A stretch of DNA of 33,382 nucleotides from Aurantimonas coralicida. GTDB lineage: Bacteria; Pseudomonadota; Alphaproteobacteria; Rhizobiales; Rhizobiaceae. Each line of letters opens with the position of its first letter. The first letter of the stretch is position 1. Positions 4,176 through 28,935 of this stretch are shown here, in pieces. The stretch is from positions 1 to 33,382 of the forward strand of contig DRFF01000072.1 of the NCBI GenBank assembly GCA_011050685.1, in the 5' to 3' direction. The notes beneath the pieces were generated by a model. That model was not told where the DNA came from. It was given only the letters and a program-made list of their open reading frames with translations, and did not search any database. The translations under genes were made by a program, and so were the position numbers.

Positions 4176-4196
4176 CATACTGTCATACATTAATAC
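4176..4196 (-). promoter_or_regulatory. Shared operator motif, copy A
   Basis: On the minus strand this reads GTATTAATGTATGACA followed by GTATG. It lies in the 140-bp divergent region between the ubiD-like gene (start 4109) and the Mo large-subunit gene (start 4250). The core TGTATGACA fits the GntR-family operator pattern (TGTA, one base, GACA). Copy A and copy E (28915-28935) agree at 20 of 21 positions. It is also bracketed by a wider inverted pair, CTTGTA (4167-4172) and TACAAG (4194-4199). Confidence 0.7.
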
Positions 4197-4249
4197 AAGC
4201 CGCAACGAGCAGGAGAAGTGCGCCTTGGGCGTGTGGGCGGAGGTCGACG

Positions 4250-6706
4250 GTGACGGAAACGATGACGAGTGCTTCCGCGGATTCGACGACCGCGCGAAAC
4301 TCCGACGTCCCGATCCCGCGCGAGCATAGTCCCGCCGATCTGAAGGCGATAACGGAGAAACTCTTCCGACATATTGGCCGGCCGGTCGAGCGTAAGGAGG
4401 ACGCAAGGCTGGTGACCGGCCAGGGACGGTTCACCGACGATTTCCGATTGCCCGGCCAGGCCTACGCGGCAATTGTCCGCTCGCCCTATCCGCACGCCCG
4501 CATCCTGGGGATCGACAGCGCCGATGCCGTGGCGAGTCCGGGCGTCCTGCTGGTCCTGACCGGCGAAGATGCGTCGAAGGATGGTCTCACGCCGATCCCG
4601 CACAATCCGGTTCCTTCCACGGATTTCGACATGAAGCTGACCGCGGCGGACGGCAGCAAGGCTTTCATCGGGCCGCATCATCTTCTGCCGACGGACAAGG
4701 TACGCCACGTCGGTGAAGCGGTGGCCATCGTCGTTGCCGAGACCCAGACTGAAGCCTTGGATGGCGCCGAACTGGTTGCCGTCGACTATGAGATATTGCC
4801 GCATGTCGTCCATTCCGAGGAGGCGATCGGCGAGGGTGCCGCGAGTGTCTGGGACGAGGTGCCCGACAACTGCTTCATCGACTCGCGTTTCGGCGATTGG
4901 CAGGCGACCGACCAGGCATTCGCCGATGCGGCGCATGTGGTCTCGGCCAAGTTCCACATCGGCCGGGTAACGGCCGTGCCGCTCGAGCCGCGATCGGCGC
5001 TCGCGGACTATGATCCCGAGACCGGCCGTTACGTCCTTTATGCGGGCAGCGGCGGGGCTGTTCGCCAGAAGCGGGAACTCGCGACTGTCCTCGGCATCGA
5101 GCAGCGTCGACTGCGGGTTCTATCCTACGACGTCGGCGGGAATTTTGGCGCGCGCAATCGCGTCTATCCGGAGTTCGGCCTGGTTCTCTGGGCTAGCGAA
5201 AAACTGCAGCGGCCGGTGAAATACACCGCAACGCGATCCGAGGCGTTCCTCACCGATTATCAGGGACGCGATCTCGTCACCACGGTGGAATTGGCCTTGG
5301 GGGAGGATGGAAGCTTTCTCGCCCTTCGCGCCGACAACATCTCCAATGTCGGCGCCCGCTGCGTGTCGCTGTCGCCGCTCAGCAAGGGGGCGGGCTTGAT
5401 CACCGGCTCCTACCGGATTCCCGCCGCCTCCCTGCGGGCCCGCGCGGTTTTCACCAACACGATGTGCACCCAGGCCTATCGCAGCTCCGGCCGGCCGGAG
5501 GTAACCTTCGCGATCGAACGGCTGGTCGAGATCGCCGCGCGCGAGCTGGGCATGGATGCTGTGGAGCTGCGCCGCAGGAACCTCGTGCCGCCGGAGGCGA
5601 TGCCCTACACCAACGCCGTCGGCTCGGTCTACGACAGCGGCGAATACGAGGCCAACATGGACCGGGTGCTTACGCTTGCCGAATGGCAAGATTTCGAGAG
5701 CCGGCGCACGGAGACGGCGAAGCGCGGCAAGTGGCTCGGACGGGGCTTGGCGCATTATGTCGAATCGTCCATCGGCACGCCGAAGGAGCGTGCCGAGATC
5801 ACCGTCAGGCCCGACGGTTCGGTCGAGGTGGTGATCGGAACGCAGCCGAGCGGACAAGGGCATGAAACGAGCTTTGCCCAGGTTGTTGCGGACATGCTGG
5901 ACCTGCCGGTCGAAGACATCGATATCGTACTCGGCGATACCGACATCGTCAGTGTCGGAGGCGGCTCCCATTCGGGCCGCTCCATGCGCCATGCGGGCAC
6001 AGTGATGGCGATGGCGTCCGCAGATCTGGTTGCCGAAGGCCGGCGCCGCGCGGCGGATCTTTTCGATGAGCCGGAAGACAGTGTCGTCTTCGCTGATGGC
6101 CGCTTCGTCATTCCGGACACAAACCATGCCGTCGACCTCGTGCAACTCGCGCGTGACACCGCCGAGACCCACGGGCCCCTGCGCGCGGCACGGACGAACG
6201 AGATGCATACGCCGGTCTTTCCGAACGGCGCAGCCGTCTGCGAGGTGGAGGTCGATCCCCAGACCGGGCTTGTCGAAATCACCCGTTACGCCAGCGTCGA
6301 CGATGTCGGCCGCTGCATCAACCCGCTGATTGTTCACGGACAGACACATGGCGGCATCGCCCAGGGCGTTGGCCAAGCGATGTGGGAGCAGTGCCACGTC
6401 GATTCCGACACCGGCCAGCCGATGTCTGGATCTTTCATGGACTATGGCATGCCGCGCTCGGACAACATGCCCTCCTTCACCTGTGAGATCGCCGAAGTCA
6501 TTTCGCCGACTAACCCGCTTGGCATCAAGGCGGGCGGGGAAGGCGGCACGACGCCGGCTTTGGCCAGCGTCATGAACGCGGTGCTCGACGCGCTGAAGCA
6601 TACCGGCGTCGTCGACCTGCCGATGCCGCTCACGCCATTGACCGTGTGGACGGCAATCCGTGGCGCCACGGGCCAAACAGATCAGAAAATGACGGGATCA
6701 CGTTGA
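4250..6706 (+). CDS. Mo-hydroxylase large subunit (xanthine dehydrogenase/CoxL family)
   Basis: The 818-residue protein is the molybdopterin-binding catalytic subunit of an aldehyde oxidase/xanthine dehydrogenase-type hydroxylase. Such enzymes insert water-derived oxygen into aldehydes or electron-poor ring carbons. The N-terminal a/b hammerhead domain (VERKEDARLVTGQGRFTDD on) precedes the Mo-binding domains, with TQPSGQGHETSFAQ, a GGGSHSGRS segment, and catalytic Glu764 in KAGGEGG. The loop that reads AYxCSFR in true CO dehydrogenase reads AYRSSGR (409-415) here, so a CODH role is unlikely. GTG 4250 is chosen because GGAGG lies 6 bases upstream; ATG 4262 is an alternative. The stop overlaps the next start (TGATG). 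Partners are the iron-sulfur and FAD subunits at 7679 and 8178. The substrate is unknown. Confidence 0.9.
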   Translation: MTETMTSASADSTTARNSDVPIPREHSPADLKAITEKLFRHIGRPVERKEDARLVTGQGRFTDDFRLPGQAYAAIVRSPYPHARILGIDSADAVASPGVLLVLTGEDASKDGLTPIPHNPVPSTDFDMKLTAADGSKAFIGPHHLLPTDKVRHVGEAVAIVVAETQTEALDGAELVAVDYEILPHVVHSEEAIGEGAASVWDEVPDNCFIDSRFGDWQATDQAFADAAHVVSAKFHIGRVTAVPLEPRSALADYDPETGRYVLYAGSGGAVRQKRELATVLGIEQRRLRVLSYDVGGNFGARNRVYPEFGLVLWASEKLQRPVKYTATRSEAFLTDYQGRDLVTTVELALGEDGSFLALRADNISNVGARCVSLSPLSKGAGLITGSYRIPAASLRARAVFTNTMCTQAYRSSGRPEVTFAIERLVEIAARELGMDAVELRRRNLVPPEAMPYTNAVGSVYDSGEYEANMDRVLTLAEWQDFESRRTETAKRGKWLGRGLAHYVESSIGTPKERAEITVRPDGSVEVVIGTQPSGQGHETSFAQVVADMLDLPVEDIDIVLGDTDIVSVGGGSHSGRSMRHAGTVMAMASADLVAEGRRRAADLFDEPEDSVVFADGRFVIPDTNHAVDLVQLARDTAETHGPLRAARTNEMHTPVFPNGAAVCEVEVDPQTGLVEITRYASVDDVGRCINPLIVHGQTHGGIAQGVGQAMWEQCHVDSDTGQPMSGSFMDYGMPRSDNMPSFTCEIAEVISPTNPLGIKAGGEGGTTPALASVMNAVLDALKHTGVVDLPMPLTPLTVWTAIRGATGQTDQKMTGSR

Positions 6707-7650
6707 TGAATGCCGAGCAAAACCTGTCCGAGATTCGCGTCATCGCGTTTCCCGGCGCTCCCAACCTGCCCACCTTCGCCGCCATCGAGAAGGGTTTCTT
6801 CGCCGAGGAGGGGCTGAACGTCACGGTCGAAACGACGCCGAACTCGGTCTATCAGTTCGAGAAATTCGCGGCCGGCGCGTTCGATATCGCCTTTACCGCC
6901 TTCGACAACGTCGTCGCCTATAGCGAGGGCCAGGGCGCGGTACAGCTTGCCGAGGATCCGGGCTTCAAGGTCATTCTGGGTGCGACGCAACTCGAGCTGT
7001 CCTTCGTCGTCGCCTCCGATGTGCAGTCCTACGCCGATCTGAAGGGCCGCTCCATCGCGCTCGACGCGTTGTCGACGGGCTTTGCCTTCGTGCTCTACGA
7101 CATGCTGGCGAAGGGCGGCTTGAGCGAAGGCGACTACGAGTTTGCCGCGGTCGGCGCGACGCCGCAGCGCTGGCAGTCGGTCAAGGCGGGCGAGCATGCC
7201 GGAACGCTGACCATCGAGCCTTTCACCAGCATCGCGAAGAAATCGGGGTTCAATGTACTCGGCACCTCCACCGCACTCTACGACTCCTATCAGGGGGGCA
7301 TCGTTGCGGCGCGTCAGGGTTGGGCGCGCGATAACGCGGACTCGGTGAAGGCCTTCATCCGCGGTTATCTCAAGGGGCTCGACTGGACACTCGACGCGGC
7401 CAATCGCAAGGAAGCCGAGGCGCTGCTGGTCGAGAAGATGCCGCAGATCCAGCCATCGGCCGTCAATCCGGTGATGGCGAGTCTGCTGTCGGCGCGCTCG
7501 GGCCTCACCCCCGGAGGCGGCATTCTGCGTGACGGGATGGCACGGGTCCTGGAACTGCGTTCACGCTATGGCTCCGACCGCCCGCTGACCGATGTCGATC
7601 GCTATCTCGACCTGTCCTTCCACGATGCCGTTCAGGGAGCGGCCGAGTGA
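6706..7650 (+). CDS. NMT1/SsuA-type binding protein without signal peptide
   Basis: The 314-residue protein has the fold signature of NMT1/THI5-like periplasmic binding proteins: the N-terminal RVIAFPGAPNLPTFAAIEKG with the GFFAEEGLNV strand, and the AAGAFDIAFTAFDN segment. These normally bind small molecules for ABC import. No signal peptide or lipobox precedes the domain, which begins about ten residues after the ATG. The upstream in-frame extension is not hydrophobic, so the protein is probably cytosolic. Its start overlaps the Mo large-subunit stop by one base, and the iron-sulfur subunit follows 28 bp later, so it is translationally tied to the hydroxylase. A ligand carrier, sensor or enzyme role is possible. 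I cannot choose between them. Confidence 0.78.
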   Translation: MNAEQNLSEIRVIAFPGAPNLPTFAAIEKGFFAEEGLNVTVETTPNSVYQFEKFAAGAFDIAFTAFDNVVAYSEGQGAVQLAEDPGFKVILGATQLELSFVVASDVQSYADLKGRSIALDALSTGFAFVLYDMLAKGGLSEGDYEFAAVGATPQRWQSVKAGEHAGTLTIEPFTSIAKKSGFNVLGTSTALYDSYQGGIVAARQGWARDNADSVKAFIRGYLKGLDWTLDAANRKEAEALLVEKMPQIQPSAVNPVMASLLSARSGLTPGGGILRDGMARVLELRSRYGSDRPLTDVDRYLDLSFHDAVQGAAE

Positions 7651-7678
7651 CCCGTCTCGGCCATCGTGAGGAATGCCC

Positions 7679-8161
7679 ATGAATGAGGTGACCCTGACGG
7701 TGAATGGCGAACGGGTGACGCGCGGCGTCGACGATCGCACGCTTCTCGTCCAGTTCCTGCGCGACGAACTTGGCCTCACCGGCACGCATGTCGGCTGCGA
7801 CACCTCCCAGTGCGGCGCCTGCGTCACGCTGGTCGACGGTCGTACGGTGAAGTCGTGCACGGTGCTGGCTGCTTCGCTCGATGGATCCGAGGTCACCACG
7901 ATCGAGGGACTGGCGCCGAAGCAAGGCGAACTGCACCCGGTGCAGGCGGCATTTCGCACCCATCACGGTCTGCAGTGCGGCTTCTGTACGCCCGGGATGA
8001 TCATGACCGCCGTCGATATGATCCGGCGGCATGGGGCCGGCCTCGACGAGGCGACGGTGCGCCATGAGCTCGAGGGTAATCTTTGCCGCTGCACCGGCTA
8101 CCACAACATCGTCAAGGCGATCTTGGCCGTGGCCGGATCGCCCGAGGCTGCCGAAGTTTGA
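7679..8161 (+). CDS. 2x[2Fe-2S] iron-sulfur subunit of Mo-hydroxylase (CoxS type)
   Basis: This 160-residue electron-transfer subunit passes electrons from the Mo centre to FAD. The plant-ferredoxin-like N-terminal cluster is bound by C40, C45, C48 and C60 ([11 protein letters not shown]). The C-terminal helical cluster domain has C100, C103, C136 and C138 (QCGFCTPGM and LCRCTGY). All eight cysteines are present and the length is normal. Start 7679 is preferred over ATG 7673 because GAGGA ends 6 bases before it. No Tat signal is present, so the enzyme is cytosolic. It is the only such subunit in the window and may serve both large subunits. Confidence 0.95.
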
Positions 8162-8177
8162 ACGAGGTCCGAGGGAC

Positions 8178-8993
8178 ATGTACCAGCTCACCTACCGCCG
8201 GCCCGCCACCGTGGCGGAGGCTGTCGCCTTCTTCGCGGAAGGCGACGATTCAGCCTTCGTTTCCGGCGGACACACATTGCTGCCCACCCTCAAGGGCCGG
8301 CTGGCCGCGCCCGACGCGCTGATCGACCTGCGCCGACTGGCCGAGCTGAAGGGAATCAGGCGCAGTGCGGACAGCCTCACCATCGGAGCGGGCGAGTTTC
8401 ACGCCGCCGTCGCGGCCTCTACCGATGTCGCGTCCGCCATCCCGGCTCTTGCTGGCCTCGCCCGCTCGATCGGCGATATCCACGTTCGCAATTTCGGAAC
8501 GCTTGGCGGCTCGATCGCTAACAACGATCCCGCTGCCGACTACCCCAGTGCGGTTCTGGCGCTGGACGCGGTGGTCCATACGGATCGCCGCCAGATCGCC
8601 GCCGAAGACTTTTTCGCCGGCTTTTTTACGACCGCGCTGGAGGACGGCGAACTTGTCGTCGCCGTGTCGTTTCCTACCGACGCGGAGTGTGGTTACGCCA
8701 AATTCCGTAATCCGGCATCGCGCTATGCGATGGCGGGCGTCTTCGTCGCGCGGTTTCAGGATCGGGTTCGAGTCGCCGTGACCGGTGCCGGCAATGAGGG
8801 CGTCTTCCGCTGGCCGGAAGCCGAGGAGCGGCTGGCGCGCAATTTCGCGGCCTCGGAAGTCTCAACGCTCTCCTTGCCCCCCGAGGGGATGATCGGCGAC
8901 ATGCATGGAACCGCTGAATATCGGGCCCATCTCGCCGCCGTCATGCTGGTCAGGGCGGTGGAAAACATGGGCCGCGCCGTCGTTACCCCCTGA
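8178..8993 (+). CDS. FAD-binding subunit of Mo-hydroxylase (CoxM type)
   Basis: This 271-residue medium subunit carries FAD and hands electrons to the final acceptor. The two FAD-contact stretches of the family are present: VSGGHTLLPTLKGRL near residue 28 and TLGGSIANNDPAADYP near residue 112. The C-terminal CO_deh_flav_C domain is recognisable though short. The ATG at 8178 is preceded by GAGGTCCGAGGGAC. It lies 16 bp after the iron-sulfur gene and completes the L-NMT1-S-M operon. It converges with ubiX, with two bases between the stop codons. Confidence 0.93.
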   Translation: MYQLTYRRPATVAEAVAFFAEGDDSAFVSGGHTLLPTLKGRLAAPDALIDLRRLAELKGIRRSADSLTIGAGEFHAAVAASTDVASAIPALAGLARSIGDIHVRNFGTLGGSIANNDPAADYPSAVLALDAVVHTDRRQIAAEDFFAGFFTTALEDGELVVAVSFPTDAECGYAKFRNPASRYAMAGVFVARFQDRVRVAVTGAGNEGVFRWPEAEERLARNFAASEVSTLSLPPEGMIGDMHGTAEYRAHLAAVMLVRAVENMGRAVVTP

Positions 8994-8995
8994 CG

Positions 8996-9622
8996 TCAGT
9001 CCGATTCGTCTAGCGATCGGATCGTCGCTTCGCCCTGCTCGATTTCCTTCACGCCCTCGGTCCAGCGTTTGACGATCGGAAGGTCTATGTCGAACAGGTC
9101 GAGGCTGCGGCCGACCGTCTGGTCCACCATGTCCTGGATCGTCTGCGGACGCGCGTACATGGCCGGAACCGGCGGCATGACGATCGCGCCGTTGTGATTG
9201 GCCTGCGCCATCAGGTCGATATGGCCGGCGTGAAGTGGGGTCTCCCTAAAAAGAAGCACAACCCGCCGACGTTCCTTCAGACAGACGTCCGCCGCCCGGA
9301 CGACCAGATCGTCACTACGGCAATGAGCGATGCCGCTCAGCGTCTTCACGGAGCACGGTGCGATCAGCATGCCGATCGTGCGGAACGAACCCGAGGCGAT
9401 CGAGGCGCCGATGTCACGGTGGCTGTAGACCTGATCCGCGAGTCCCTTGATGTCATCGAGACTCCGGTCCGTCTCGGCCAGGGAGGTCCGGGCCGCGGCG
9501 GGAGAAATCACGACATGGGTCTCGATCGACTCGACCTGGCGCAGCAGTTCGAGCGCCCGAATGCCGTAGATTGTCCCGGATGCTCCGGTGAGGGCGATGA
9601 TGAGCCGGCGTTTTCCTGCCAC
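8996..9622 (-). CDS. ubiX: UbiX-type flavin prenyltransferase
   Basis: The 208-residue enzyme joins a dimethylallyl group to reduced FMN, making the prenylated FMN used by UbiD enzymes. Family marks are TGASG at about residues 12-16 (flavin phosphate binding), PCSVKTLSGIAHCRSDDL, the KERRRVVLLFRETPLH block and MPPVPAMY. Length is normal. It starts with GTG at 9622, with AAGGA about 9 bases upstream. It ends the minus-strand set that begins with the flavin reductase, which could supply reduced flavin. It is apart from the ubiD-like gene but inside the same putative regulon, so it likely serves that enzyme rather than ubiquinone synthesis. Confidence 0.93.
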   Translation of the reverse strand: MAGKRRLIIALTGASGTIYGIRALELLRQVESIETHVVISPAAARTSLAETDRSLDDIKGLADQVYSHRDIGASIASGSFRTIGMLIAPCSVKTLSGIAHCRSDDLVVRAADVCLKERRRVVLLFRETPLHAGHIDLMAQANHNGAIVMPPVPAMYARPQTIQDMVDQTVGRSLDLFDIDLPIVKRWTEGVKEIEQGEATIRSLDESD

Positions 9623-9715
9623 GCAGTTTGTCCTTTTTTATCCAAGCTTTCGCCGCGTCGCCGTCCGGGCGATCCAGTCCCGTCCGCAGGGGTGTACCCG
9701 GGCCAGGTGACTGTC

Positions 9716-10249
9716 TCAATCCGGGGTGGTGAGCGTGGCGAGAAGCGCGCGTATGGCCGGTACCGAAGGGTCCGCGCCGAGGTGCCCGAGAAGGGCGGCA
9801 AGATTGGCCGCCGCCAAGGCGCCGTCCCCGCCGGCGCCCCCGGTCCATCCTCGCTGCTCGGCGAGATCGGCCAATGCCGCCAGTTCCATTCGCTCCGCAT
9901 CGAGTTCGGCGGATTTGATCTGCTGCCGCAGTTTTTCGGACGCGCCGGACGGCGCCCTCAAAGGGTCGGACTTCAATCGTCTGCGCGCCGCGCGCAGGGG
10001 CTGGACGATTCCCGCGTGCCAGGTACCGATCTCGGCCTGGATCAGCGAAAGCTCGGCTTCGCCGACCCCGCAACCGTGTTCGACCCCTATCCAAACGACG
10101 AAAAGAGCGACCGGTACGTCCACGCCGTGTCGATCCTGGAGGGTGAGGCAAGCCTCCGAGACACCGCCGCGACCGTACAGCGTGACCGCGAAACGCCAGA
10201 GCGAATCGACACTGTCCTGGATGTCGGGGGATGGTTCAGCCAAAGCCAC
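9716..10249 (-). CDS. TIGR02444/DUF2390-family protein
   Basis: The 177-residue protein resembles the TIGR02444 family through its opening segment, LWRFAVTLYGRGGVSEACL, and the LQDRHGVDVPVALFVVWI stretch. No biochemical role for the family is known to me. It has no signal peptide or clear membrane segment and is Ala/Leu-rich and mostly helical. GTG 10249 is preferred over TTG 10255 because AGGAG lies 6 bases before it. It lies between the flavin reductase and ubiX on the same strand, with gaps of 162 and 93 bp. Homologues often occur in core genomes, so it may be a passenger here. Confidence 0.72.
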   Translation of the reverse strand: MALAEPSPDIQDSVDSLWRFAVTLYGRGGVSEACLTLQDRHGVDVPVALFVVWIGVEHGCGVGEAELSLIQAEIGTWHAGIVQPLRAARRRLKSDPLRAPSGASEKLRQQIKSAELDAERMELAALADLAEQRGWTGGAGGDGALAAANLAALLGHLGADPSVPAIRALLATLTTPD

Positions 10250-10411
10250 GGCCAACTCCTGGTTCGGTTCCTACGCCAGCCGCCCCTCGGGCATCGGCGC
10301 GCGGCAGCTTTAGCAAACGCCATTTCGCCTGTCCTGCGTAAACGCCCGCTATCCCATCCTCGGACGTCGCGATCCACGCATGGGCTGCGGGCAGGTTGCC
10401 ATCCGGCCCTG

Positions 10412-11005
10412 TTATTCAGCCGCCTGGAGGGACTGCGGTAGCACGATGCTGGGCGCAAGGCGGACGACTTGCCGCGCCATGCATCGGAGCTGCTCGGCGA
10501 TCGTCGGATCCTGCGGCCCGTCGGATGTGAACGTGCACAGGCTGCTGTTGATCGCGACCCCCAAGGGCGTCGGCCAACCGCGAAGCGCGTGCGCGATGGA
10601 GCGCAGTGCCATCAGTGTCGTCCCCGCCGCTTGAGCGCCATAGGAGCAGGTGACGCACCCAACGGTCCGCCCGTCGAGATAGATACGGTCGTCGTCCCGC
10701 ATGTCTTCGATATAGTCGAGCGCGTTCTTGATCAGGCCGGAAAGGCTGCCGTGATAGGCAGGCGAGCCGACGATGATGCCATCCGCATTGCGGAGCGCCT
10801 CGATCAGGGCGATCGCCGCATTCGAGCGCTCCGGACGCTCGGGCGAATACATCGGCAGGAGAAGCTCCCGTCCGCTGAACATCCGCGTGCGCGCGCCAAG
10901 TTCCTCAGCGTGGAGGAGCGCATAGCGCACCGCCTGTTCGCTCGATGAACCTTCCCGCGTCGTACCGCCCAGTCCAACAATGAACGGCGCCCCGGTCGAT
11001 GCCAT
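10412..11005 (-). CDS. NADPH-dependent FMN reductase-like flavoprotein
   Basis: The 197-residue flavodoxin-fold protein belongs to the NADPH-dependent FMN reductase family. The phosphate-binding loop is GGTTREGSSSE near the N-terminus, and GSPAYHGSLSGLIKNALDYI is the conserved second flavin-contact region. It is probably cytosolic. ATG 11005 is chosen because GGAGGGAAGG lies directly before it; the ATG at 11020 is not needed. The gene diverges from the second Mo large subunit across operator copy B. It could supply reduced FMN to the luciferase-like monooxygenase at 16440, or reduced flavin for UbiX. Both roles are inferences. Confidence 0.87.
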   Translation of the reverse strand: MASTGAPFIVGLGGTTREGSSSEQAVRYALLHAEELGARTRMFSGRELLLPMYSPERPERSNAAIALIEALRNADGIIVGSPAYHGSLSGLIKNALDYIEDMRDDDRIYLDGRTVGCVTCSYGAQAAGTTLMALRSIAHALRGWPTPLGVAINSSLCTFTSDGPQDPTIAEQLRCMARQVVRLAPSIVLPQSLQAAE

Positions 11006-11179: not shown

Positions 11180-11200
11180 GTATTACAGTATGACGATTCT
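11180..11200 (+). promoter_or_regulatory. Shared operator motif, copy B
   Basis: GTATTACAGTATGACG and the following bases lie in the 250-bp divergent region between the flavin reductase (start 11005) and the second Mo large subunit (start 11256). It agrees with copy A at 13 of the first 16 positions and keeps the invariant GTATGAC. It is the least similar of the five copies. Confidence 0.6.
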
Positions 11201-14481: not shown

Positions 14482-14496
14482 CGATCGGTCCCGTGG

Positions 14497-15392: not shown

Positions 15393-15413
15393 ATCCTAAT
15401 GTATGACGGTATA
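15393..15413 (+). promoter_or_regulatory. Shared operator motif, copy C
   Basis: TAATGTATGACGGTAT (15397-15412) is the conserved part, in the 267-bp divergent region between the esterase (start 15366) and the hydrolase/monooxygenase operon (start 15634). The GTATGAC core and the preceding TAAT match the other copies. The site abuts the minus-strand start, as expected for a repressor site. Confidence 0.65.
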
Positions 15414-17636: not shown

Positions 17637-17680
17637 GGTGGCAGGCGGAACAGTGCAAGAATCAACGGGAGGAAAAAAAC

Positions 17681-18661: not shown

Positions 18662-18667
18662 CAGGGC

Positions 18668-18699
18668 CGGGCCTGAGGCGCACCGCGCTCTCAGGCCCG
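18668..18699 (+). terminator. Intercistronic hairpin after the binding-protein gene
   Basis: CGGGCCTGAG (18668-18677) pairs perfectly with CTCAGGCCCG (18690-18699) around a 12-base loop. No T run follows, so it is more likely an mRNA-stabilising or partial attenuating structure than a strong terminator. That would favour excess binding protein over ATPase and permease, as is common in ABC operons. Confidence 0.6.
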
Positions 18700-18778
18700 C
18701 AATCTTGCGAAAACGAAACCATCGATTGGCAGCGGGTCGACGTCTCGATCACGCTGTCTAGCCGTCAAAGCGATCACG

Positions 18779-19573: not shown

Positions 19574-19582
19574 GAGAGGACG

Positions 19583-20425: not shown

Positions 20426-21182
20426 CCAAGCCACGGGCGATCGGCCTCGCGTCTGGGATCGCTATCTGACGGATCGTGACAAGGAGATCGTCTCCCTGGC
20501 CGGCTACGGTGCTCGGCAGGGTTTCGGCAAGCGGCCCGCTCTCCTCGTCGTCGACGTAAACTATGCCTTTTGCGGCGACCGGCGCGAGCCCGTCGCCCAG
20601 TCGATCCTCCGATGGCGCCAGTCGGGCGGCGAGGAAGCCTGGGATGCGCTGCCGGTCCTGGCCACGACCCTCGAAGCGGCGCGCGAGCGCGGCGTCCCGG
20701 TGATCTACACCACGGGCATTCAGCGCGACGACAAATGGGACCGCGGTGGCTGGGCCTGGAAGAACCGGCGCAGCAACGAGCGACCCGCTCAAACCAATCT
20801 CGACGGCAACGAGATCATGCCGCAGATCGCGCCCGGCCCGCGGGACATCGTCATCCGCAAGCAGAAGCCGAGCGCCTTCCACGGCACCCATCTTCTCGAC
20901 TATCTGCTGCTGCTGCGTTGCGACAGCCTGATCGTGATGGGCACCGCGACGAGCGGCTGCGTTCGGGCGAGCGTCGTCGACGCATTCAGTTACAACCTGC
21001 GGGTCGCGGTGGTGGAGGATGGCTGCTTCGAGCGCTGCCAGGCCAGCCATGCGATCAACCTGTTCGATCTCCATGCCAAATACGCCGACGTGCTGCCGAG
21101 CTCCGACGTGCTGGCCTTCCTGGGGGGGCTCCCTGACGGCCTGTTCGAACTGCCGGCCGGTACCGCGCATGGCAAGGCCTGA
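20418..21182 (+). CDS. Isochorismatase-family amidohydrolase
   Basis: The 254-residue cysteine hydrolase belongs to the family of N-carbamoylsarcosine amidase, maleamate amidase and RutB. The triad is visible: D46 in LLVVDVNYAF, K148 in RKQKPSAF, and C181 in ATSGCVRAS. A cis-peptide-forming segment precedes the Cys. The N-terminal tail of about 35 residues is longer than in nicotinamidases, as in carbamoylsarcosine amidases. Reactions in this branch release ammonia or carbamate from open-chain amides. It starts inside the permease gene and ends 42 bp before the GMC gene. It probably acts after ring opening, freeing nitrogen. The exact amide is unknown. Confidence 0.9.
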   Translation: MADQATGDRPRVWDRYLTDRDKEIVSLAGYGARQGFGKRPALLVVDVNYAFCGDRREPVAQSILRWRQSGGEEAWDALPVLATTLEAARERGVPVIYTTGIQRDDKWDRGGWAWKNRRSNERPAQTNLDGNEIMPQIAPGPRDIVIRKQKPSAFHGTHLLDYLLLLRCDSLIVMGTATSGCVRASVVDAFSYNLRVAVVEDGCFERCQASHAINLFDLHAKYADVLPSSDVLAFLGGLPDGLFELPAGTAHGKA

Positions 21183-21224
21183 GCTGCCGCCGCGCGCCGA
21201 TCCGTCGGCACCCGGCTTCTGACG

Positions 21225-22874
21225 GTGGAAAGTCATCGCTTCGATTACGTCATCGTCGGCGCGGGCACGGCCGGCTGCGTCCTGGCCAACCGGCTGAGCG
21301 CCGACCCGGATGTGACCGTCGTTCTGATCGAGAGCGGCGGCCGCGACTGGAATCCGCTTTTGAGTATCCCGCTGGGGGTCGGCATGCTCTGGTCGCGGCG
21401 GTTGTACGACTGGGGATACGACAGCGAGCCGCAACCAGAACTTGGTGGGCGTCGTCTCGAAATGATGCGCGGCAAGGTTCTCGGCGGCTCCTCCTCGATC
21501 AATGCCATGTCCCATGTTCGCGGGCGTCCCGGCGACTTCGACCGCTGGGCCGCGCGCGGCTGTCCGGGCTGGTCGTTCGAAGAGGTTGCGGGCTATTTCG
21601 CCAGGAGCGAGCGCTGGGAAGGCGGGCGGACGAGCGCCTCCGCCGGCGCGCGTCGCGGGCACGACGGGCCGCTCGGAGTGATGGCGTCCACATCCGACGA
21701 TCCGCTATTTGATGCTTGGCTGTCAGCTGCCGCGGCGCTCGGCTACCCAGTCCTCGACGACTACAATCTTGGGGCGGTCGAAGGCTTCGGACGAAGCCAG
21801 TTCTCGATCGACAGAGGGCGACGGGCCAGTGCGTCTCGGGCTTTTCTGGAACCTGCCAGGCACCGGCCGAATTTGACGATTTGGACGCAAGCGACGGTCG
21901 ACAGCCTGATCCTCAAAGGGGATCGGGCGCTGGGCGTCGTTTGCAACCGCAAGGGCCGCGCGCGCAACGTCATCGCCGAGCGGGCCGTCGTTCTCTGCGC
22001 GGGAGCCTTTGGCACGCCGGCATTGCTCATGCGCTCCGGCATCGGCGACCCGGCCGAAATGCGACCCTACGACATTCCCGTCGTCGCGGACCGGCCTGCG
22101 GTCGGCAAGAATTTGCAGGACCATCCGGGCGTGGTCGTCGGCTATGGACGGCGCGAACCGGGCGCGTTCCGCCGCTCGATGCGCGCGGACCGCGTCGCGC
22201 TGAACATGCTGCGCGCTTTGGTGCTGGGGACCGGACCGGCGACGATCCTGCCGTCCGGGCTGCACGGTTTTGCCAGGCTCAGGCCGGAATCGGCCGTCCC
22301 CGACATACAGTTCATGTTCCGCGGCGCGCCGCGCGACGCGAGCCCATGGTTTCCTGCCGTCAGGCCCGCTTATCGCGACTCCTACGCGATCCGCCCGGTG
22401 CTGCTGAATCCGCGCTCGCGTGGCCATGTGCGCTTGGGCGGATCGGAGCCGGATGTCGCTCCCCGCATTGACCCGCGGCTGCTGAGCGATCCAGCCGATC
22501 TGGCCGATCTTCGCGAGGGCGTGCGATTGGCGCGCGATCTCGGCCGCCACGCGTCGCTCAGCGCCTTCCGGTCGGACGAGATAACTCCGGGCCGGTCGGT
22601 TCGCTCCGACGCCCAGATCGATGCGTTCATCCGCCGCAAGGCCGCCACTGCCCATCATCCTGCAGGAACCTGCCGGATGGGGGCCGATGACTCGGCCGTG
22701 GTGGATACGCGGCTGCGGGTGAACGGAATCGCGGGACTGCGGATAGCCGACGCCTCGGTGATGCCGGATCTCGTCTCCGGCAACATCAATGCGACGGTGA
22801 TGATGATTGCCGAGCGCTGTGCGGATTTTCTGTTGAAGCCCGAGTTGGATCGGATGCCAAATTTGCAGCGATGA
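21225..22874 (+). CDS. GMC-family FAD oxidoreductase
   Basis: The 549-residue flavoprotein belongs to the glucose-methanol-choline oxidoreductase family, which oxidises alcohols (sometimes aldehydes) with FAD. The ADP-binding motif VIVGAGTAGCVLANRLS is at the N-terminus. GMC signature 1 (GKVLGGSSSINAM) follows near residue 86, signature 2 (GAFGTPALLMRSGIG) near residue 260, and the C-terminal active site has HHPAGTCRMG and a second-position Asn in NINATVMM. The start is GTG 21225 without a clear ribosome site. As last gene of the operon it could oxidise an alcohol side chain or intermediate. HMF oxidase (HmfH) is a family relative that also occurs beside UbiD genes. Confidence 0.92.
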   Translation: MESHRFDYVIVGAGTAGCVLANRLSADPDVTVVLIESGGRDWNPLLSIPLGVGMLWSRRLYDWGYDSEPQPELGGRRLEMMRGKVLGGSSSINAMSHVRGRPGDFDRWAARGCPGWSFEEVAGYFARSERWEGGRTSASAGARRGHDGPLGVMASTSDDPLFDAWLSAAAALGYPVLDDYNLGAVEGFGRSQFSIDRGRRASASRAFLEPARHRPNLTIWTQATVDSLILKGDRALGVVCNRKGRARNVIAERAVVLCAGAFGTPALLMRSGIGDPAEMRPYDIPVVADRPAVGKNLQDHPGVVVGYGRREPGAFRRSMRADRVALNMLRALVLGTGPATILPSGLHGFARLRPESAVPDIQFMFRGAPRDASPWFPAVRPAYRDSYAIRPVLLNPRSRGHVRLGGSEPDVAPRIDPRLLSDPADLADLREGVRLARDLGRHASLSAFRSDEITPGRSVRSDAQIDAFIRRKAATAHHPAGTCRMGADDSAVVDTRLRVNGIAGLRIADASVMPDLVSGNINATVMMIAERCADFLLKPELDRMPNLQR

Positions 22875-22911: not shown

Positions 22912-24012
22912 TCAGTGCGGGCGGCGAAACCGGTCGACTACACGGAAGACGAGCCCGGCTGACGTCATGACCAGAAACACCCGCATGATATGATGGGTGG
23001 CGACGAAGGCCACCTCGACGTGGAGGGCGAGCGCGATGAGACTGGTTTCGGTCAGGCCGCCGGGCGAATAGGCCAGCAGCAGGTCCAGCAGCGGCAGCCC
23101 ACTAAGTCGACTCAGTCCCAGCGAGAAGGCTAGGCTGATCACGATCAGGATCAGCGTCGACCCCACCGAGAAGCCGAGGATCCGCAGGATTTCCTGCAGC
23201 CGCGCGCCTGCGAAGCGGCAACCGAGCATCGTGCCGAGCACGAGCTGAGCCATTGCTACCAGCTCGTAGGGCGGGCGAAATTCCGTCACTCCGGACAGAT
23301 GTACGATCGCGCTCGCCAGCATCGGTCCCATCAGGTCCGGTGCCGGCAGTCGCATCCAGCGTCCCAGAGCAATGCCGACCAGTCCTGTCAGGACGAGCCA
23401 CAGCTCCACCGTCCAGCCGGCATCGACGATCGACAGTCCTGAGTTTGGCCGGGTCACGACCGATTGTCCGGTCACCAAGTGCAGCACAAAGGGCAGGGCG
23501 AAGACGATCAGCATGATCCGGCTGGAATGGACGAGCGCGATGATGCGGGGATCACCGCCCTTGGCTTGGCCGAGCGTGACCATTTCGATCAGGCCGCCTG
23601 GCATGCCCGCGAAATAGGCGGTCGGCAGATCGAATCCGGCAACCCAGTGGAAATAGGTGACACAGGCGGCCGCAGCCACGAACAGGAAAAGCACCAGCCC
23701 GAGCAGGCTCGGCAGCCAATCCGCCATCCCGGCGACCATTCCCGGCGTAAAGCCGGCACCCAGCAACACGCCCACGAGCATGGTCATGGGCGGCCGAACG
23801 ATTGATGGAGCCCTGACCGGCAGGCGCAGAAGCGAGGCCGCGAGACAGGCTGCCATCGGACCCAGCATCCACGGCAGGGGAAGCGAGAATTCCAGGAAGA
23901 TGATCGCGCCGACGAGGGCGACGACGAGGGCCAGAGCAAAACGCCCATACGGGAATTGGGAAGGCGACAGCGGCTCCAGGACCGACGAGAATCGTTTCAG
24001 AACAGGCAGCAT
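22912..24012 (-). CDS. AbrB-family inner-membrane protein
   Basis: The 366-residue protein has about ten hydrophobic segments in two repeated halves and belongs to the AbrB family (once annotated as ammonia monooxygenase). The repeat signature occurs twice, as FAGMPGGLIEM and LAYSPGGLTETSL, typical of this duplicated family. The function of such proteins is poorly defined, and transport is likely. It has no partner gene of its own and diverges from the hydrolase at 24185 across operator copy D, so it is probably an exporter or importer for the pathway. The start at 24012 has no outstanding ribosome site. Confidence 0.85.
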   Translation of the reverse strand: MLPVLKRFSSVLEPLSPSQFPYGRFALALVVALVGAIIFLEFSLPLPWMLGPMAACLAASLLRLPVRAPSIVRPPMTMLVGVLLGAGFTPGMVAGMADWLPSLLGLVLFLFVAAAACVTYFHWVAGFDLPTAYFAGMPGGLIEMVTLGQAKGGDPRIIALVHSSRIMLIVFALPFVLHLVTGQSVVTRPNSGLSIVDAGWTVELWLVLTGLVGIALGRWMRLPAPDLMGPMLASAIVHLSGVTEFRPPYELVAMAQLVLGTMLGCRFAGARLQEILRILGFSVGSTLILIVISLAFSLGLSRLSGLPLLDLLLAYSPGGLTETSLIALALHVEVAFVATHHIMRVFLVMTSAGLVFRVVDRFRRPH

Positions 24013-24091: not shown

Positions 24092-24112
24092 GATTATGTC
24101 ATACGTTAATAC
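24092..24112 (-). promoter_or_regulatory. Shared operator motif, copy D
   Basis: The minus strand reads GTATTAACGTATGACA, one mismatch in 16 from copy A. It lies in the 172-bp divergent region between the AbrB-family gene (start 24012) and the hydrolase (start 24185). TGTCATAC on the plus strand is at 24097-24104. Confidence 0.7.
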
Positions 24113-24184
24113 GATCATATGGAAGACCGGCGCAAGAGCGCGCGCAAGCCTGTTCAGACATCGACGATTCCGAAGGAAAAATAT

Positions 24185-25003
24185 ATGGCGGACGATCACG
24201 CGCAGCCGATCAGAGCGACTTCACGCGACGGGACCCACTTGGCCTATCGGCTGGTCGCCGGTGGCGGCGCCGGCCGCTGCGTCTTGATTCACTCCCTCGC
24301 CATGGACGGTTCCTTTTGGGACGGGGTGACGCCGCTGCTTGCCGATCATGGCGACGTTCTCGTCTATGACTGCCGTGGGCACGGCGCCTCCGACAAACCC
24401 GAGGGTCCCTATTCCGTCAGCCTGTTTGCCGACGATCTCGCCGATCTGTTCGACCACGTCGGATGGGAGAAGGTCGTCGTGTGCGGTGCGTCGATGGGCG
24501 GCTGTGTCGCGTTGGCTTTCGCCGAACGCTATCCCCGGCGCGTCGATGGCCTCGGCCTCTTCGATACCACCGCCTGGTACGGTGAGGACGCGCCGTCCGC
24601 CTGGGAGACGCGCGCGCAAAAAGCGCTCGAAGGCGGCATGGGCGCGCTTGTCGACTTCCAGAAGACTCGCTGGTTCAGCGATGCGTTCAGACAGGCCCAT
24701 CCGAAGAGCGTCGACGGCGCCATCGCCGTCTTCCTGCGCAACGACCCGAAGGCCTATGCCGCGACCTGCCGGATGCTCGGTGCGGCCGACGCGCGCGCCG
24801 CACTGTCAGGCTTTGACTTTCCCTGCCGGATCCTTGTTGGCGAGGAGGACTATGCAACCCCCGTGGCGATGGCCGAGGCAATGCATGCCGCAATTCCACG
24901 CTCCGAGCTGCGCGTGATCGAGAAGGCTCGGCACTTCACCCCCATCGAGCGACCCCTGGAGATTGCCGAGGCTATCGGCGCGCTTCTGTCGGCGACGCGA
25001 TAG
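24185..25003 (+). CDS. Alpha/beta hydrolase, enol-lactonase-like
   Basis: The 272-residue hydrolase resembles 3-oxoadipate enol-lactonase-type enzymes. The oxyanion segment is LIHSLAMDGSFWD, the nucleophile Ser103 is in CGASMGG, the acid lies in VGEEDYATP, and the catalytic His in EKARHFTPIERP. YDCRGHGASDKP is the usual post-strand loop. ATG 24185 is chosen because GAAGGAA lies about 8 bases upstream; the upstream ATG at 24119 would overlap the promoter and has no family similarity. It stands alone on the plus strand downstream of operator copy D. A role in ring-fission product or lactone hydrolysis is an inference. Confidence 0.87.
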   Translation: MADDHAQPIRATSRDGTHLAYRLVAGGGAGRCVLIHSLAMDGSFWDGVTPLLADHGDVLVYDCRGHGASDKPEGPYSVSLFADDLADLFDHVGWEKVVVCGASMGGCVALAFAERYPRRVDGLGLFDTTAWYGEDAPSAWETRAQKALEGGMGALVDFQKTRWFSDAFRQAHPKSVDGAIAVFLRNDPKAYAATCRMLGAADARAALSGFDFPCRILVGEEDYATPVAMAEAMHAAIPRSELRVIEKARHFTPIERPLEIAEAIGALLSATR

Positions 25004-25068
25004 CTTGCGCCTCAGCTAAGGCCTCTTTTCAGCGCCGCTTCCGAAACGGCAGTCGTTCCGCTCGGCGT

Positions 25069-26841
25069 TCAACCCAATTCAACCATCGCCTGATCGATGT
25101 ACTCTGGTCGGACATGCACATCGAGGACATAGGCGGCACCGGCCTCTAGCCTGTCGAACGCCTTTTCCAAGGCGGCCGGGAGATCGCGCAGATCGGTGAC
25201 CGGTTCGCCGGCCTCCAGGCCTTGCGCCCGGGCCAGGGCAGGCAGATCGGGCGCCGGCTGCTCCATGCGCTGTCCGATAGGCGCGTTCTCGACAGGCCTG
25301 CCGCGATCGCGCGCGATGTGTATCTGGTGGTTCTCGTCGTTATAGTAGGAGTGATTGTTCGCGACGAGAAACAGCAGCGGTAGGCGGAGCGTCGCTGCAT
25401 TCCAGAGCGCGGTCGCCCCCATCGTGTAGTCACCGTCGCCGAGGATTGCGACGGCGCGACGCTCCGAGCCGATTTCGCGCAGGCCGAGCGCCGCTCCCAC
25501 GGCGATGGAGGGGCCGGCGCCCAGGCCGCCGCCTCCGGTGTGGCCGAGGAAATCGTGGGGATGCTCGATGCGATTGCCATTGGTCGGCCATCCCAGCGGT
25601 CGTCCGGTGATCGACAATTTGCGGTTCTCGCTCACGGTGGCAAAGGCGCGGGCAAGATCCATCAGGCCGATTTCCCCCGTTCCGGAAACCGGCGGAAGTG
25701 CAGGGAAGGAGAGTGTCGCCGGGACGGGGGCAGGGCGCTCTTCCGTGAGCCGCTCGATCAGCCGCCGCACAGTCGGCTCCGGCGTCGTTGGGATGTTTAC
25801 ATCGACATGTGGCAGGCCGCCATAGTCCATGTTCCAGCCGCGGTGGATATGGAAGTCGTTGGAGACGTTGATGACCGGCGGGCGTTCCACGCCGGCCGGG
25901 AAGGCAAGCTTCAACGTGTTGCCGGCATCGAGCCAGTCGAGCATGAGGATGGCGTCGGCCGCGCGGATTTCCTCCAGAACGCGGCCCTTCAACCGCCAGC
26001 CTGTCTCGGCGACGAACGCCGGATGGGTGGTCGGGAAACCGGCGGCGAGCTTCATGTGCGCGGTGGTGCGCGCGTTGAGCATCTCTGCGAGCGTGATGCG
26101 GTCCTGCCAGGCGCCGATGTCGCGCGTACCGCGGCCGCAGAAGATGAAGGGCCGGTCCGCCCGGGCGAGGATGCCTGCGGCTTGCTCGAGTGCCTCAGCC
26201 GGGGGCTCGGCATCGCCTGCGGCGGCCGTCAGAGAGACCGGGTCGAAATGGGGTCGCTCGGCGATCTCGGCTTCTTGGACGCTGACGTCGAGATTGACAT
26301 AGACGGGGGCGCAAGGCCGCGTGTTGGCGAGAAAGACGCCGCGCCGGATCGACTCGACCGCGGCCTCGGCCGAACCGGGCTGGTCGTCCCACTTCGTGTA
26401 GCCTCGCACCAGTCCGCCCTGGTCATTGGTGGTGTGGATCCATTCGATCCAGGGTCGTCGTTTGGCCGCGTCCACCGGACCGGTGGCGCCGATCACCAGC
26501 ATCGGGGCGCGATCGCACCAGGCATTGAAAATTCCCATCGAGGCATGCATCAGCCCAACATTGGAATGCACCGCGACGGGCAGCGCCCTGTCGGTGATCT
26601 TGGCATAGCCCTGGGCTATGCCGACGGCATGCTCCTCATGCATGCAGACGATCATCTCTGGTCGTTGATTGCCGAGATGATTGACGATCGAATCGTGCAG
26701 GCCGCGGAAGCTCGCCCCGGGATTGAGGCAGATGTAGGGGAAATTCTGCTCCCGGAGCGCCTCGGCAATGAGGTCGCTTCCATAGAGCGTTTCCGCATCC
26801 TGGTGTTGCGCGGTCCTGGCCGCGCCATTTCCGTTCGGCAT
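25069..26841 (-). CDS. Thiamine-diphosphate-dependent enzyme (acetolactate synthase/benzoylformate decarboxylase-like)
   Basis: The 590-residue enzyme has the three-domain plan of pyruvate-oxidase-like ThDP proteins. The N-terminal PYR domain carries the activating Glu in MHEEHAVGIAQGYAK (about residue 69). A central domain follows, and the PP domain has the ThDP/Mg motif from GDGDYTMG (468) to NN (495-496). Reactions in this family decarboxylate or carboligate 2-keto acids. The ATG at 26841 is preceded by GGGAGAAAA; longer frames running into the permease gene are not coding. It follows the fused TctA-TctB gene by 35 bp on the same strand. The substrate is unknown. A keto acid made late in the pathway, or a benzoylformate-like acid, is possible. 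Confidence 0.88.
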   Translation of the reverse strand: MPNGNGAARTAQHQDAETLYGSDLIAEALREQNFPYICLNPGASFRGLHDSIVNHLGNQRPEMIVCMHEEHAVGIAQGYAKITDRALPVAVHSNVGLMHASMGIFNAWCDRAPMLVIGATGPVDAAKRRPWIEWIHTTNDQGGLVRGYTKWDDQPGSAEAAVESIRRGVFLANTRPCAPVYVNLDVSVQEAEIAERPHFDPVSLTAAAGDAEPPAEALEQAAGILARADRPFIFCGRGTRDIGAWQDRITLAEMLNARTTAHMKLAAGFPTTHPAFVAETGWRLKGRVLEEIRAADAILMLDWLDAGNTLKLAFPAGVERPPVINVSNDFHIHRGWNMDYGGLPHVDVNIPTTPEPTVRRLIERLTEERPAPVPATLSFPALPPVSGTGEIGLMDLARAFATVSENRKLSITGRPLGWPTNGNRIEHPHDFLGHTGGGGLGAGPSIAVGAALGLREIGSERRAVAILGDGDYTMGATALWNAATLRLPLLFLVANNHSYYNDENHQIHIARDRGRPVENAPIGQRMEQPAPDLPALARAQGLEAGEPVTDLRDLPAALEKAFDRLEAGAAYVLDVHVRPEYIDQAMVELG

Positions 26842-26876
26842 GGTTTTCTCCCGTCGAGATCGCGTGCTGTCCGGTG

Positions 26877-28883
26877 TCAGATCAGCCGAGTCGTCAAAAC
26901 GCGCAGTTGCGGAATAGCCTCCCCGAGCCACGAAGCGGGCCAGGGAATGTGCAAGGTGAGGTGGAACAACAGAAAGAGCGCGGTGCCGAACAGGGCGGCG
27001 ATGATCAGTGCGCGAGCCGGAGCGGTGTTGCCGGCAAACACCATGTAGGAGAACGTATATACAACGATAGCTGGAATCATGCCGACCATGGCCACCCCAA
27101 GAACGAGGCCGGCTACCCACAGGCCCTCCTTTATCAGGACGGCGGCGGGCGCGACCGCTTCGTTCGTGATGGACGGAATTCGATTGAGAAACCGGACAAT
27201 GGCGAAGAGGGCCGCGGCGACAAGACAGGCGAGTGCGACGGCCTGCGGCATCAGGCGCGCGGCGAAATCCCAGTCGCTCGATGAGACGAGAACGTAGATG
27301 GCGACAGCGACAACGCCAGCCCACATAACCACGTCGGCAATCAGAAGGCCTCTAGTGGCAGGCGTGTGCAGTACCGGCGCCGCCTTACCCGCGGACGCTG
27401 CCACGCGATTGCGTCCGACTAAGTGCAGAAGCAGAGGCTTTCCCAGCATCACGGCGATCAGACTGAGCAGAACGAAGGGGATCGGCTGCAACATCCACGC
27501 CGCGCCGTAGCGCAGTTGCGAGATGAACAGGTAGTTCTCGATCAATCCGCCCAAGACGAAGGCGAGGATGACGGGTGGCCGCGGCCAATTCAGCCGCTTC
27601 ATCACCCAGCCGAGCAGACCGAAGCCGGCCAGGACAAGGAGATCGGCATAGGCTTGAGCCCCCTGATAGGCGCCGATCAGCATCAGGCCGAAGATCAGCG
27701 GTACCAGAAGCCCCGCCCGGACCGAGGCGACCTTGGCAAACTGTCCAGCGAAGGCGAAGCAGATTCCCGCGCCCAGGATGTTGGCCAGCGCCACCGTCCA
27801 GATCAGCGTGAAGGTGATATCAAGATCCTTGCCGAGCATATTCGGACCAGGGGCGACGCCGTGGATGAGGAACGCGCCGAGCAACAGCGCCATCGAGGCG
27901 GAGCCGGGCACGCCGAAGGCCAACGTTGGCACGAGCGCGCCGCCTTCCTTGGCATTGTTGGCACTTTCAGAAGCGATGACTCCCCTGACGTCTCCCTTGC
28001 CGAAAGTTTCCGAGGCGCCCTTCACCGAGCGCGCCGCATAGCCATAGGCAATCCAATCGATAACAGAGGCCCCCAGGCCGGGAATCGCGCCGAGAATGCT
28101 GCCGATCGCCGAGCAGCGCAGAACGAGCCAATAGTTCGTCAGAACGTCCCGGGCGCCACGTAGCTGCTGCCATCGGTCCGCGCGTGTGTCGACTTGGGAA
28201 ATCGAGCGTTTGGAGGCAGCCAGATCGATGATCTCGGGGACGGCGAAGAGGCCGAGCGCTAGCGGGACGAGGGAAATGCCATCCCATAAGTAGAAACTAT
28301 CGAAGGTCCAGCGCTGAATTCCCGTCTGCGGCTCGTCTCCGATCGTCGAAAGGAGCAGCCCGATCCCGGCCGCAGCGATACCTTTGAAAAGCGCGCCTTG
28401 GCTGAGCGACACGATCAGCGTCAGACCGAGAAGGCAGACGGCGAGCAACTCGGGCGTCCCGATCGACAGGATGAAGGGACGCAGCAGTGGTACTGAAAGA
28501 GCCAGCAGGAGCGCGCCGAAAAGGCCGCCACAAACGGAGGCGGTAAAGGCGGCGCCGTAAGCTCGGCCCGCCTCGCCCTTTTTCGCCATTGGATGACCGT
28601 CGAGCACGGTGGCGGCGGAGCCGACGGTTCCCGGCACCCCGAACAGCACGGCTGGAATGGTATCGGATGTGGTGGTGACGGATTGCACGCCGACCAGGAA
28701 GGCGAGCGCGGTATAGGGGTCGAGCGAAAAAGTGAATGGCAGCAGCAGCGCAAGGCCGACCAGGCCGCCGATGCCGGGGATCACACCGATCATCAGACCC
28801 AGCAATGTGCCGAGAGCGACGAAGAGAAGTCGAGACGGCTCGAAAATGATGCCGAGAGCATCGATCGCCGCTTCCGCCACCAT
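26877..28883 (-). CDS. Fused TctA-TctB tripartite tricarboxylate transporter permease
   Basis: The 668-residue membrane protein joins the large and small permeases of a TTT transporter. Residues 1 to about 500 are TctA (LMIGVIPGIGGLVGLALLLP, then VLFGVPGTVGSAATVLDGHP and the second-half repeat TLAFGVPGSASMALLLGAF). From about 515 to the end there are four more hydrophobic segments with TctB features (AARLMPQAVALACL and the closing HIPWP). Ordinary TctA is about 500 residues and TctB about 150 as a separate gene, so this is a fusion. It diverges from its binding-protein gene tctC across operator copy E. The substrate is probably a carboxylate. Confidence 0.9.
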   Translation of the reverse strand: MVAEAAIDALGIIFEPSRLLFVALGTLLGLMIGVIPGIGGLVGLALLLPFTFSLDPYTALAFLVGVQSVTTTSDTIPAVLFGVPGTVGSAATVLDGHPMAKKGEAGRAYGAAFTASVCGGLFGALLLALSVPLLRPFILSIGTPELLAVCLLGLTLIVSLSQGALFKGIAAAGIGLLLSTIGDEPQTGIQRWTFDSFYLWDGISLVPLALGLFAVPEIIDLAASKRSISQVDTRADRWQQLRGARDVLTNYWLVLRCSAIGSILGAIPGLGASVIDWIAYGYAARSVKGASETFGKGDVRGVIASESANNAKEGGALVPTLAFGVPGSASMALLLGAFLIHGVAPGPNMLGKDLDITFTLIWTVALANILGAGICFAFAGQFAKVASVRAGLLVPLIFGLMLIGAYQGAQAYADLLVLAGFGLLGWVMKRLNWPRPPVILAFVLGGLIENYLFISQLRYGAAWMLQPIPFVLLSLIAVMLGKPLLLHLVGRNRVAASAGKAAPVLHTPATRGLLIADVVMWAGVVAVAIYVLVSSSDWDFAARLMPQAVALACLVAAALFAIVRFLNRIPSITNEAVAPAAVLIKEGLWVAGLVLGVAMVGMIPAIVVYTFSYMVFAGNTAPARALIIAALFGTALFLLFHLTLHIPWPASWLGEAIPQLRVLTTRLI

Positions 28884-28914
28884 GAGCGTACCTCTCCTCT
28901 CCGCGTTGTTTTAT

Positions 28915-28935
28915 GTAGTAATGTATGACAGTATG
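28915..28935 (+). promoter_or_regulatory. Shared operator motif, copy E
   Basis: GTAGTAATGTATGACA and the following GTATG differ from copy A at one of 21 positions. It lies in the 151-bp divergent region between the fused TctA-TctB gene (start 28883) and the tctC gene (start 29035), 31 bp before the minus-strand start. Confidence 0.7.

Follow-up and report, generated by a model that had tools for sequence, protein, structure and literature searches.

An operator-like motif shared by the divergent promoters of a catabolic island in Aurantimonas coralicida, and its probable GntR/FCD reader

In a stretch of DNA from Aurantimonas coralicida, five divergently transcribed gene pairs carry nearly the same short motif between them, which raises the question of whether a single regulator reads all five. 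The stretch (the window) is an entire contig, DRFF01000072.1 (C72), of 33,382 bp, out of a draft genome of 4,861,057 bp. It holds a catabolic island flanked on both sides by insertion-sequence (IS) genes, and it encodes at 1532-2209 a GntR-family regulator with an FCD domain. We propose that the five sites are very probably the operators of this regulator, and that the whole island, about ten transcription units in all, is probably under the control of this one protein. The regulon is solidly supported, and it is a new example of an ordinary mechanism of gene control.

Written in one common orientation, the five 21-mers (Table 1) all contain TA(A/C)NGTATGAC, and GTATGAC, a GT-N3-AC core, is present in each. 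A preliminary description of this DNA had placed the five copies correctly, and the two at 4176 and 28915 are, as it said, identical at 20 of 21 positions. It had also claimed that every divergent pair of the cluster has exactly one copy and that none had been found elsewhere in the window. All five real divergent gaps of the cluster do hold a copy: the gene model gives seven divergent gaps, and the two without a site lie between IS genes and beside an open reading frame on the strand opposite tctAB, which we take as spurious. GTATGAC is absent from the 8 co-directional and the 5 convergent gaps of the window, and also from coding sequence once the 30 bases next to each gene end are set aside. 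The rest of the claim has to be dropped: a sixth exact match to the 11-mer TAMNGTATGAC (M being A or C), overlooked earlier, lies at 11258-11268 on the reverse strand. Even with one mismatch allowed, this match does not fit the extended pattern GTNNTANNGTATGAC, and it is either an auxiliary site or a coincidence. When one mismatch to the 11-mer is allowed, the window contains 6 matches, all of them exact, whereas 100 shuffles gave 0.73 +/- 0.76 matches and never more than 3.

Over the whole genome the exact 11-mer occurs 7 times, 6 of them on this contig and the seventh on contig C24, while the reversed pattern, taken as a control, has 0 matches. The many unrelated copies that would have spoken against the preliminary description are thus not seen in exact form. 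From the rate outside the contig, 0.007 matches would be expected in the window. This figure is post hoc, because the motif was discovered in this very window, and the tests in other genomes therefore weigh more. Exact matches to the extended pattern GTNNTANNGTATGAC number 4 genome-wide, and every one lies within the window. The motif is found at the promoters of all the units and is rare elsewhere in the genome, gntR itself being the exception.

For the tests in other genomes we used 61 UbiD loci, obtained from a scan of genome contigs carrying UbiD; 18 of them have an orthologue of the window's GntR protein (at least 45% identity over 150 residues). The exact 11-mer is present in 15 of these 18 loci and in 1 of the 43 without the orthologue (Fisher p = 1.7e-10, for loci which are related and not independent), which amounts to 23 sites in 385 kb against 1 site in 682 kb. 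L008, the sole locus with the motif and without GntR, covers 7 kb: the contig breaks off within XdhA2, short of the place where gntR stands in several relatives. Loss of the motif in relatives, which the preliminary description had named as a way to refute it, is not what we find: the motif is retained and follows the GntR orthologue.

The position of the motif was surveyed in gaps of 20-700 bp, in the 61 loci plus six plasmid loci (five with GntR; L113 without). Among the 23 relatives with GntR, 38 of 68 divergent gaps contain GTATGAC, as do 15 of 262 co-directional ones and none of the 67 convergent ones; their coding sequence, 496 kb, has it 14 times. In the 44 GntR-less loci the corresponding numbers are 2 of 79, 1 of 261 and 1 of 74, with 19 occurrences in 620 kb of coding sequence. 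For divergent gaps, the difference between loci with and without GntR gives a Fisher p of 6e-14 (again for related loci). The reversed core CAGTATG is found in 13 of 68 divergent gaps of the GntR-bearing relatives and in 2 of 79 of the others; this control is unclean because the third box of the operator, described below, contains that string. Gaps between TctA and TctC with a site number 7, window included. Among the 17 sites labelled co-directional, 8 stand 47-96 bp upstream of gntR itself, in 8 of the 23 GntR-bearing relatives (L010, L011, L012, L015, L054, L108, L110 and L111, with two pairs from the same species), and in these eight gntR appears to be autoregulated. The loci known to be non-independent are L010/L108 (N. 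petrolearium), L054/L111 (S. fredii), L058/G129 (same contig coordinates) and L024/L071 (same site sequence).

On a wider scale, 397 genomes of the same order were searched: GntR is matched at E<=1e-50 in 5 of them, and the 16-mer TAATGTATGACARTAT is present in 2, the window's own genome and G129. These two have the highest GntR identity (100 and 78%), and the three with a GntR of 48-49% identity are without the exact form. Of these three, one yielded a stretch (L071) whose GTATGAC site matches the L024 site exactly.

What does the regulator's target look like? In 14 aligned UbiD/XdhA1 gaps the mean column identity is 46%, and all the invariant columns lie in the motif or within some 20 bases of it: a TTG, the block AATGTATGACA with GT before it and TAT after it, and one A of a later CAA. 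The spacing of further boxes was studied with 34 deduplicated GTATGAC sites (64 before deduplication) from 24 GntR-bearing loci, window included; a box copy was defined by at least 5/7 matches, offsets ran from 7 to 21 (those below 7 were left out) and 2000 shuffles served as reference. Box copies are concentrated at -8 (11 direct, 11 inverted) and at +8 (9 direct, 6 inverted), where the shuffle maximum over offsets is 5; there are 4 direct and 3 inverted copies at -16, and at most 2 at each remaining offset. Since GTATGAC comes close to being a palindrome, direct copies can hardly be told from inverted ones. Of the 34 sites, 27 have G at position -8 and 27 have T at -7, and the left box mostly reads GTMNTAM. 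The proposed operator thus consists of GT-N3-AC boxes that follow one another every 8 bp around a central GTATGAC. The GntR regulon of the preliminary description is backed by the relatives, with the amendment that its operator is an array and not one palindrome and that gntR lacks a clear site here.

Two further features of the sites can be mentioned. Upstream of a PcaD-like gene of N. petrolearium (L108, 31761-31775) there is a perfect GTCATAC-N-GTATGAC palindrome. An outer frame, TTG at -17 and CAA at +18, surrounds 10 of the 64 sites (4176 and 28915 in the window; L015, L016, L019, L021, L022, L024 and L058), and possibly represents the -35 elements of two face-to-face promoters.

The regulator has an N-terminal GntR winged helix (PF00392: 6.4e-16, 58.2 bits against a cut-off of 27) and a C-terminal FCD domain (PF07729: 1.6e-19, 71 bits against a cut-off of 24.3). 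The stretch SRTSLR of its recognition helix is unchanged in 19 of 19 orthologues. When the FCD domain is aligned with 7xp0 (alignment A1), two of the three aligned His positions, presumably metal ligands in 7xp0, are not His in the family of the window regulator, so that the effector site may differ from that of metal-binding FCD proteins and effector binding may be metal-free.

Several results weigh against assigning the motif to this GntR protein. When one mismatch is allowed, the extended pattern GTNNTANNGTATGAC has 13 matches in the genome (the fifth window site and 8 elsewhere being added) against 14 for the reversed control; in its own genome, the signal is carried by the exact forms. 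In the whole genomes of 13 relatives, the bare 11-mer is found 36 times and its reversed pattern 51 times. It is not rare there, and therefore only position, the extended form and covariation argue for the motif outside its own genome. Three loci, L014, L018 and L020, have GntR without the exact 11-mer, each with the 7-mer GTATGAC, and among the 68 divergent gaps of GntR-bearing relatives 30 are without an exact 7-mer. Genes homologous to those of the window border 6 of these 30, and 4 of the 6 are gaps between SBP2 (a substrate-binding protein, SBP) and isochorismatase genes. The gene pairs of sites 2, 3 and 4 carry the 7-mer in the window only (the AbrB/PcaD pair of site 4 has none in L058), so that these three sites receive no one-by-one support from relatives; other relatives do have sites before PcaD-like genes. 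The window's gntR, which is located downstream of ubiD, has no clear site of its own. No GTATGAC was found in the GntR stretches, of about 3.6 kb, of L072 and L073, from same-order genomes with a GntR of 48-49% identity; this absence is weak evidence, because the matching stretches of the own genome and of G129 (L069 and L070) are also without GTATGAC. A scan for sigma-70 promoters gave none at the sites (0 and 2 matches against 2.2 expected per half), so that we infer the overlap of operators with promoters rather than read it from the scan. Finally, L109, on a Phyllobacterium zundukense plasmid, has GntR and no exact motif in 37.6 kb. At 18001-20382 of this locus, UbiD is matched in three pieces and unannotated, GntR adjoins it, and the 37.6-kb stretch has no XdhA1. 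L109 is perhaps a decaying island, with a UbiD which is apparently broken.

Could the motif be read by another protein? LysR regulators often adjoin and control catabolic operons, and one is encoded inside the island at 13570-14481; the sites might belong to it, or to both regulators. We hold this to be very unlikely, as the window LysR is matched (tblastn, E<=1e-10) in only 1 of the 61 loci, the motif-less L030, at 29% identity, whereas the motif is present in 15 of the 18 GntR loci. As the conserved main reader, LysR was rejected on this ground. Near the cluster of N. petrolearium there is an annotated LysR gene which the window LysR does not match, and a LysR role at some promoters is possible. 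A GntR-family or other regulator encoded elsewhere could also be thought of, since the genome contains 16 more GntR-family matches (E<=1e-3). These are just 22-33% identical, and from genus to genus the motif accompanies the local orthologue and often stands before it, which leaves a reader from elsewhere with a very small probability.

The block might also be no operator at all and instead a core element of divergent promoters, or of two face-to-face ones. The TTG/CAA frame mentioned above fits such a role, all the more as in the 14 UbiD/XdhA1 gaps its TTG is invariant and its CAA nearly so (gaps allowed), and site 3 contains TATAAT. Such a general element would not be so rare where GntR is missing, and GTATGAC is found in 2 of 79 divergent gaps of GntR-less loci, the 11-mer being nearly missing from the rest of the own genome; we regard this explanation as extremely improbable. 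It may well be that the outer frame is promoter and that the operator lies in between. As for chance, or the copying of duplicated promoter segments within the island, the near identity of sites 1 and 5 would agree with a duplication, but the flanks differ among the five sites and the motif was tested in loci that had not been used for defining it. Chance and recent duplication were rejected on the rarity in the genome, the covariation and the divergent-gap counts in relatives, and we give them a probability close to nil. The GntR/FCD protein encoded in the window remains by far the best candidate as reader of the five sites.

Table 1. Genes and motif sites of the window. Sites are given with their 21-mer; Mo, molybdenum; FMN and FAD, flavin cofactors; TPP, thiamine pyrophosphate.
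Feature	Position	Strand	Remarks
IS481 transposase	564-1457		left edge of island
GntR/FCD regulator, proposed operator reader	1532-2209	-	Pfam GntR and FCD
UbiD-family decarboxylase	2472-4106	-	best solved relative 6h6v
Proposed operator 1	4176-4196	-	GTATTAATGTATGACAGTATG; mid-gap, UbiD (start 4106) / XdhA1 (start 4250 or 4262)
XdhA1 Mo-hydroxylase large subunit, NMT1-like protein, 2Fe-2S and FAD subunits	4262-8993	+	presumed single operon
UbiX prenyltransferase, TIGR02444/DUF2390 protein, FMN reductase	8996-11005	-
Proposed operator 2	11180-11200	+	GTATTACAGTATGACGATTCT; FMN reductase (-) / XdhA2 (+) gap
XdhA2, second Mo-hydroxylase large subunit	11256-13562	+
Sixth exact core match	11258-11268	-	over XdhA2 start codon (11256), 74 bp from the 11184 copy
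LysR regulator (13570-14481) and alpha/beta esterase	13570-15366	-
Proposed operator 3	15393-15413	+	ATCCTAATGTATGACGGTATA; esterase (-) / hydrolase, luciferase-like monooxygenase and ABC operon (+) gap
Hydrolase, luciferase-like monooxygenase, ABC transporter (SBP, ATPase, permease), isochorismatase-like hydrolase, GMC oxidoreductase	15634-22874	+
AbrB-type membrane protein (TIGR03082, PF05145)	22912-24012	-
Proposed operator 4	24092-24112	-	GTATTAACGTATGACATAATC; AbrB-type membrane protein (-) / PcaD-like hydrolase (+) gap
3-oxoadipate enol-lactonase-like (PcaD-like) hydrolase	24119-25003, start possibly 24185	+	below NCBIfam cut-off
TPP-dependent enzyme	25069-26841	-
TctA-TctB fusion	26877-28883	-	Pfam TctA 438.5 bits; TctB 21.4 bits, under cut-off of 29.1
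Proposed operator 5	28915-28935	+	GTAGTAATGTATGACAGTATG; TctAB (-) / TctC (+) gap
TctC binding protein	29035-30105	+
IS21 IstB	31297-32175		right edge of island
IS3-like fragment	32663-33154		right edge of island; below curated cut-off

The island contains a prenyl-FMN decarboxylase together with its cofactor enzyme (UbiD and UbiX), and a three-subunit Mo-hydroxylase with an extra large subunit. Because these families are present, its substrate is probably an aromatic or heteroaromatic acid; the best solved match of UbiD, 6h6v, is an enzyme which we take to be a furandicarboxylate decarboxylase. Among the matches listed in the open literature searched, no paper on this cluster or its pathway was found, and those to the literal string TGTATGACA are unrelated by title. 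The island was probably acquired, because IS481, IS21 and IS3-like genes stand at its edges and a GntR match at E<=1e-50 was found in 0 of 20 same-family genomes searched. TctA and TctB share one reading frame of 668 codons, TctB being below the Pfam cut-off. A member of the NMT1/THI5-like binding-protein family (6706-7650) is located within the Mo-hydroxylase operon, and many relatives retain it next to XdhA1. N. petrolearium has there, in addition, a gene whose annotation is carbon monoxide dehydrogenase subunit G.

The GntR protein is likely to be a repressor, with induction of its targets by an acid of the pathway. Its dimers would fill the central box first and the side boxes cooperatively; lying between both start sites of a divergent pair, they would block its two promoters. 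The acid or an intermediate would then bind the FCD domain and release the protein, with joint induction of the two Mo-hydroxylase large subunits, the prenyl-FMN decarboxylase, the flavin monooxygenase, the hydrolases and the ABC and Tct transporters. In this way a widespread catabolic island is given a regulator together with its operator and some ten transcription units, and the substrate can therefore be searched for through what relieves GntR binding. With their one, two or three boxes, the sites also provide natural material for studying close box spacing in the GntR family.

A survey of FadR-subfamily operators (PMC4494728) gives GT-Nx-AC as the consensus of the GntR family, usually with three bases between in the FadR subfamily; lone sites in divergons usually serve both operons, and accessory boxes, half-sites 7-12 nt from the centre, are common. 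The operators described there resemble ours by their GT-N3-AC core, their weaker extra boxes and their place in the middle of divergent gaps. Neither this orthologous group nor GTATGAC is met in the passages of the survey consulted, and both may stand in its supplements. The sole NCBIfam match of the regulator at E<=1e-20, the PhnR-like GntR family TIGR03338, scores 100 bits, far below its cut-off of 271.5 bits, which shows that the window regulator is not that equivalog.

In NanR of E. coli (PMC8012715), three GGTATA boxes are bound cooperatively by three dimers. The likeness lies in boxes closely repeated at a fixed short pitch, with peaks here at exactly -8 and +8. The differences are the box itself (GGTATA, as against a central GTATGAC here), the pathway, and an N-terminal extension of 32 residues in NanR, as against 19 residues before the helix-turn-helix match of Pfam, which begins at residue 20 of our regulator. 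Tentatively, and with more doubt than confidence, we suggest an FCD regulator that works without the NanR extension on a graded GT-N3-AC array of strict 8-bp pitch, with two to three dimers per divergent pair. This module would have travelled along with a mobile pathway of acid degradation, based on UbiD and Mo-hydroxylase and so far undescribed, into rhizobia, roseobacters, Sphingomonas and Puniceispirillum-type bacteria, and would have captured operons (here those of sites 2 and 3) by means of new operators.

The comparison can be extended to Atu1419 of Agrobacterium fabrum (VanR group), which PMC7797058 describes as an FCD/GntR repressor of several promoters in a hydroxycinnamate region, that is, as probably here, in an alphaproteobacterial region for the catabolism of aromatic acids. 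It contacts DNA through Ser44, Arg45, Thr46 and Arg49, a recognition-helix Arg contacting G, and these residues line up by eye with Ser54, Arg55, Thr56 and Arg59 of the window regulator. Its operator, ATGTATACAT, has an ATGTAT half in common with the commonest form here, and its degenerate second site within a gene is comparable to the 11258 match over the start of XdhA2. The Atu1419 operator is nevertheless a 10-bp palindrome, unlike the sites of the island, where GT-N3-AC boxes follow one another with a pitch of 8 bp.

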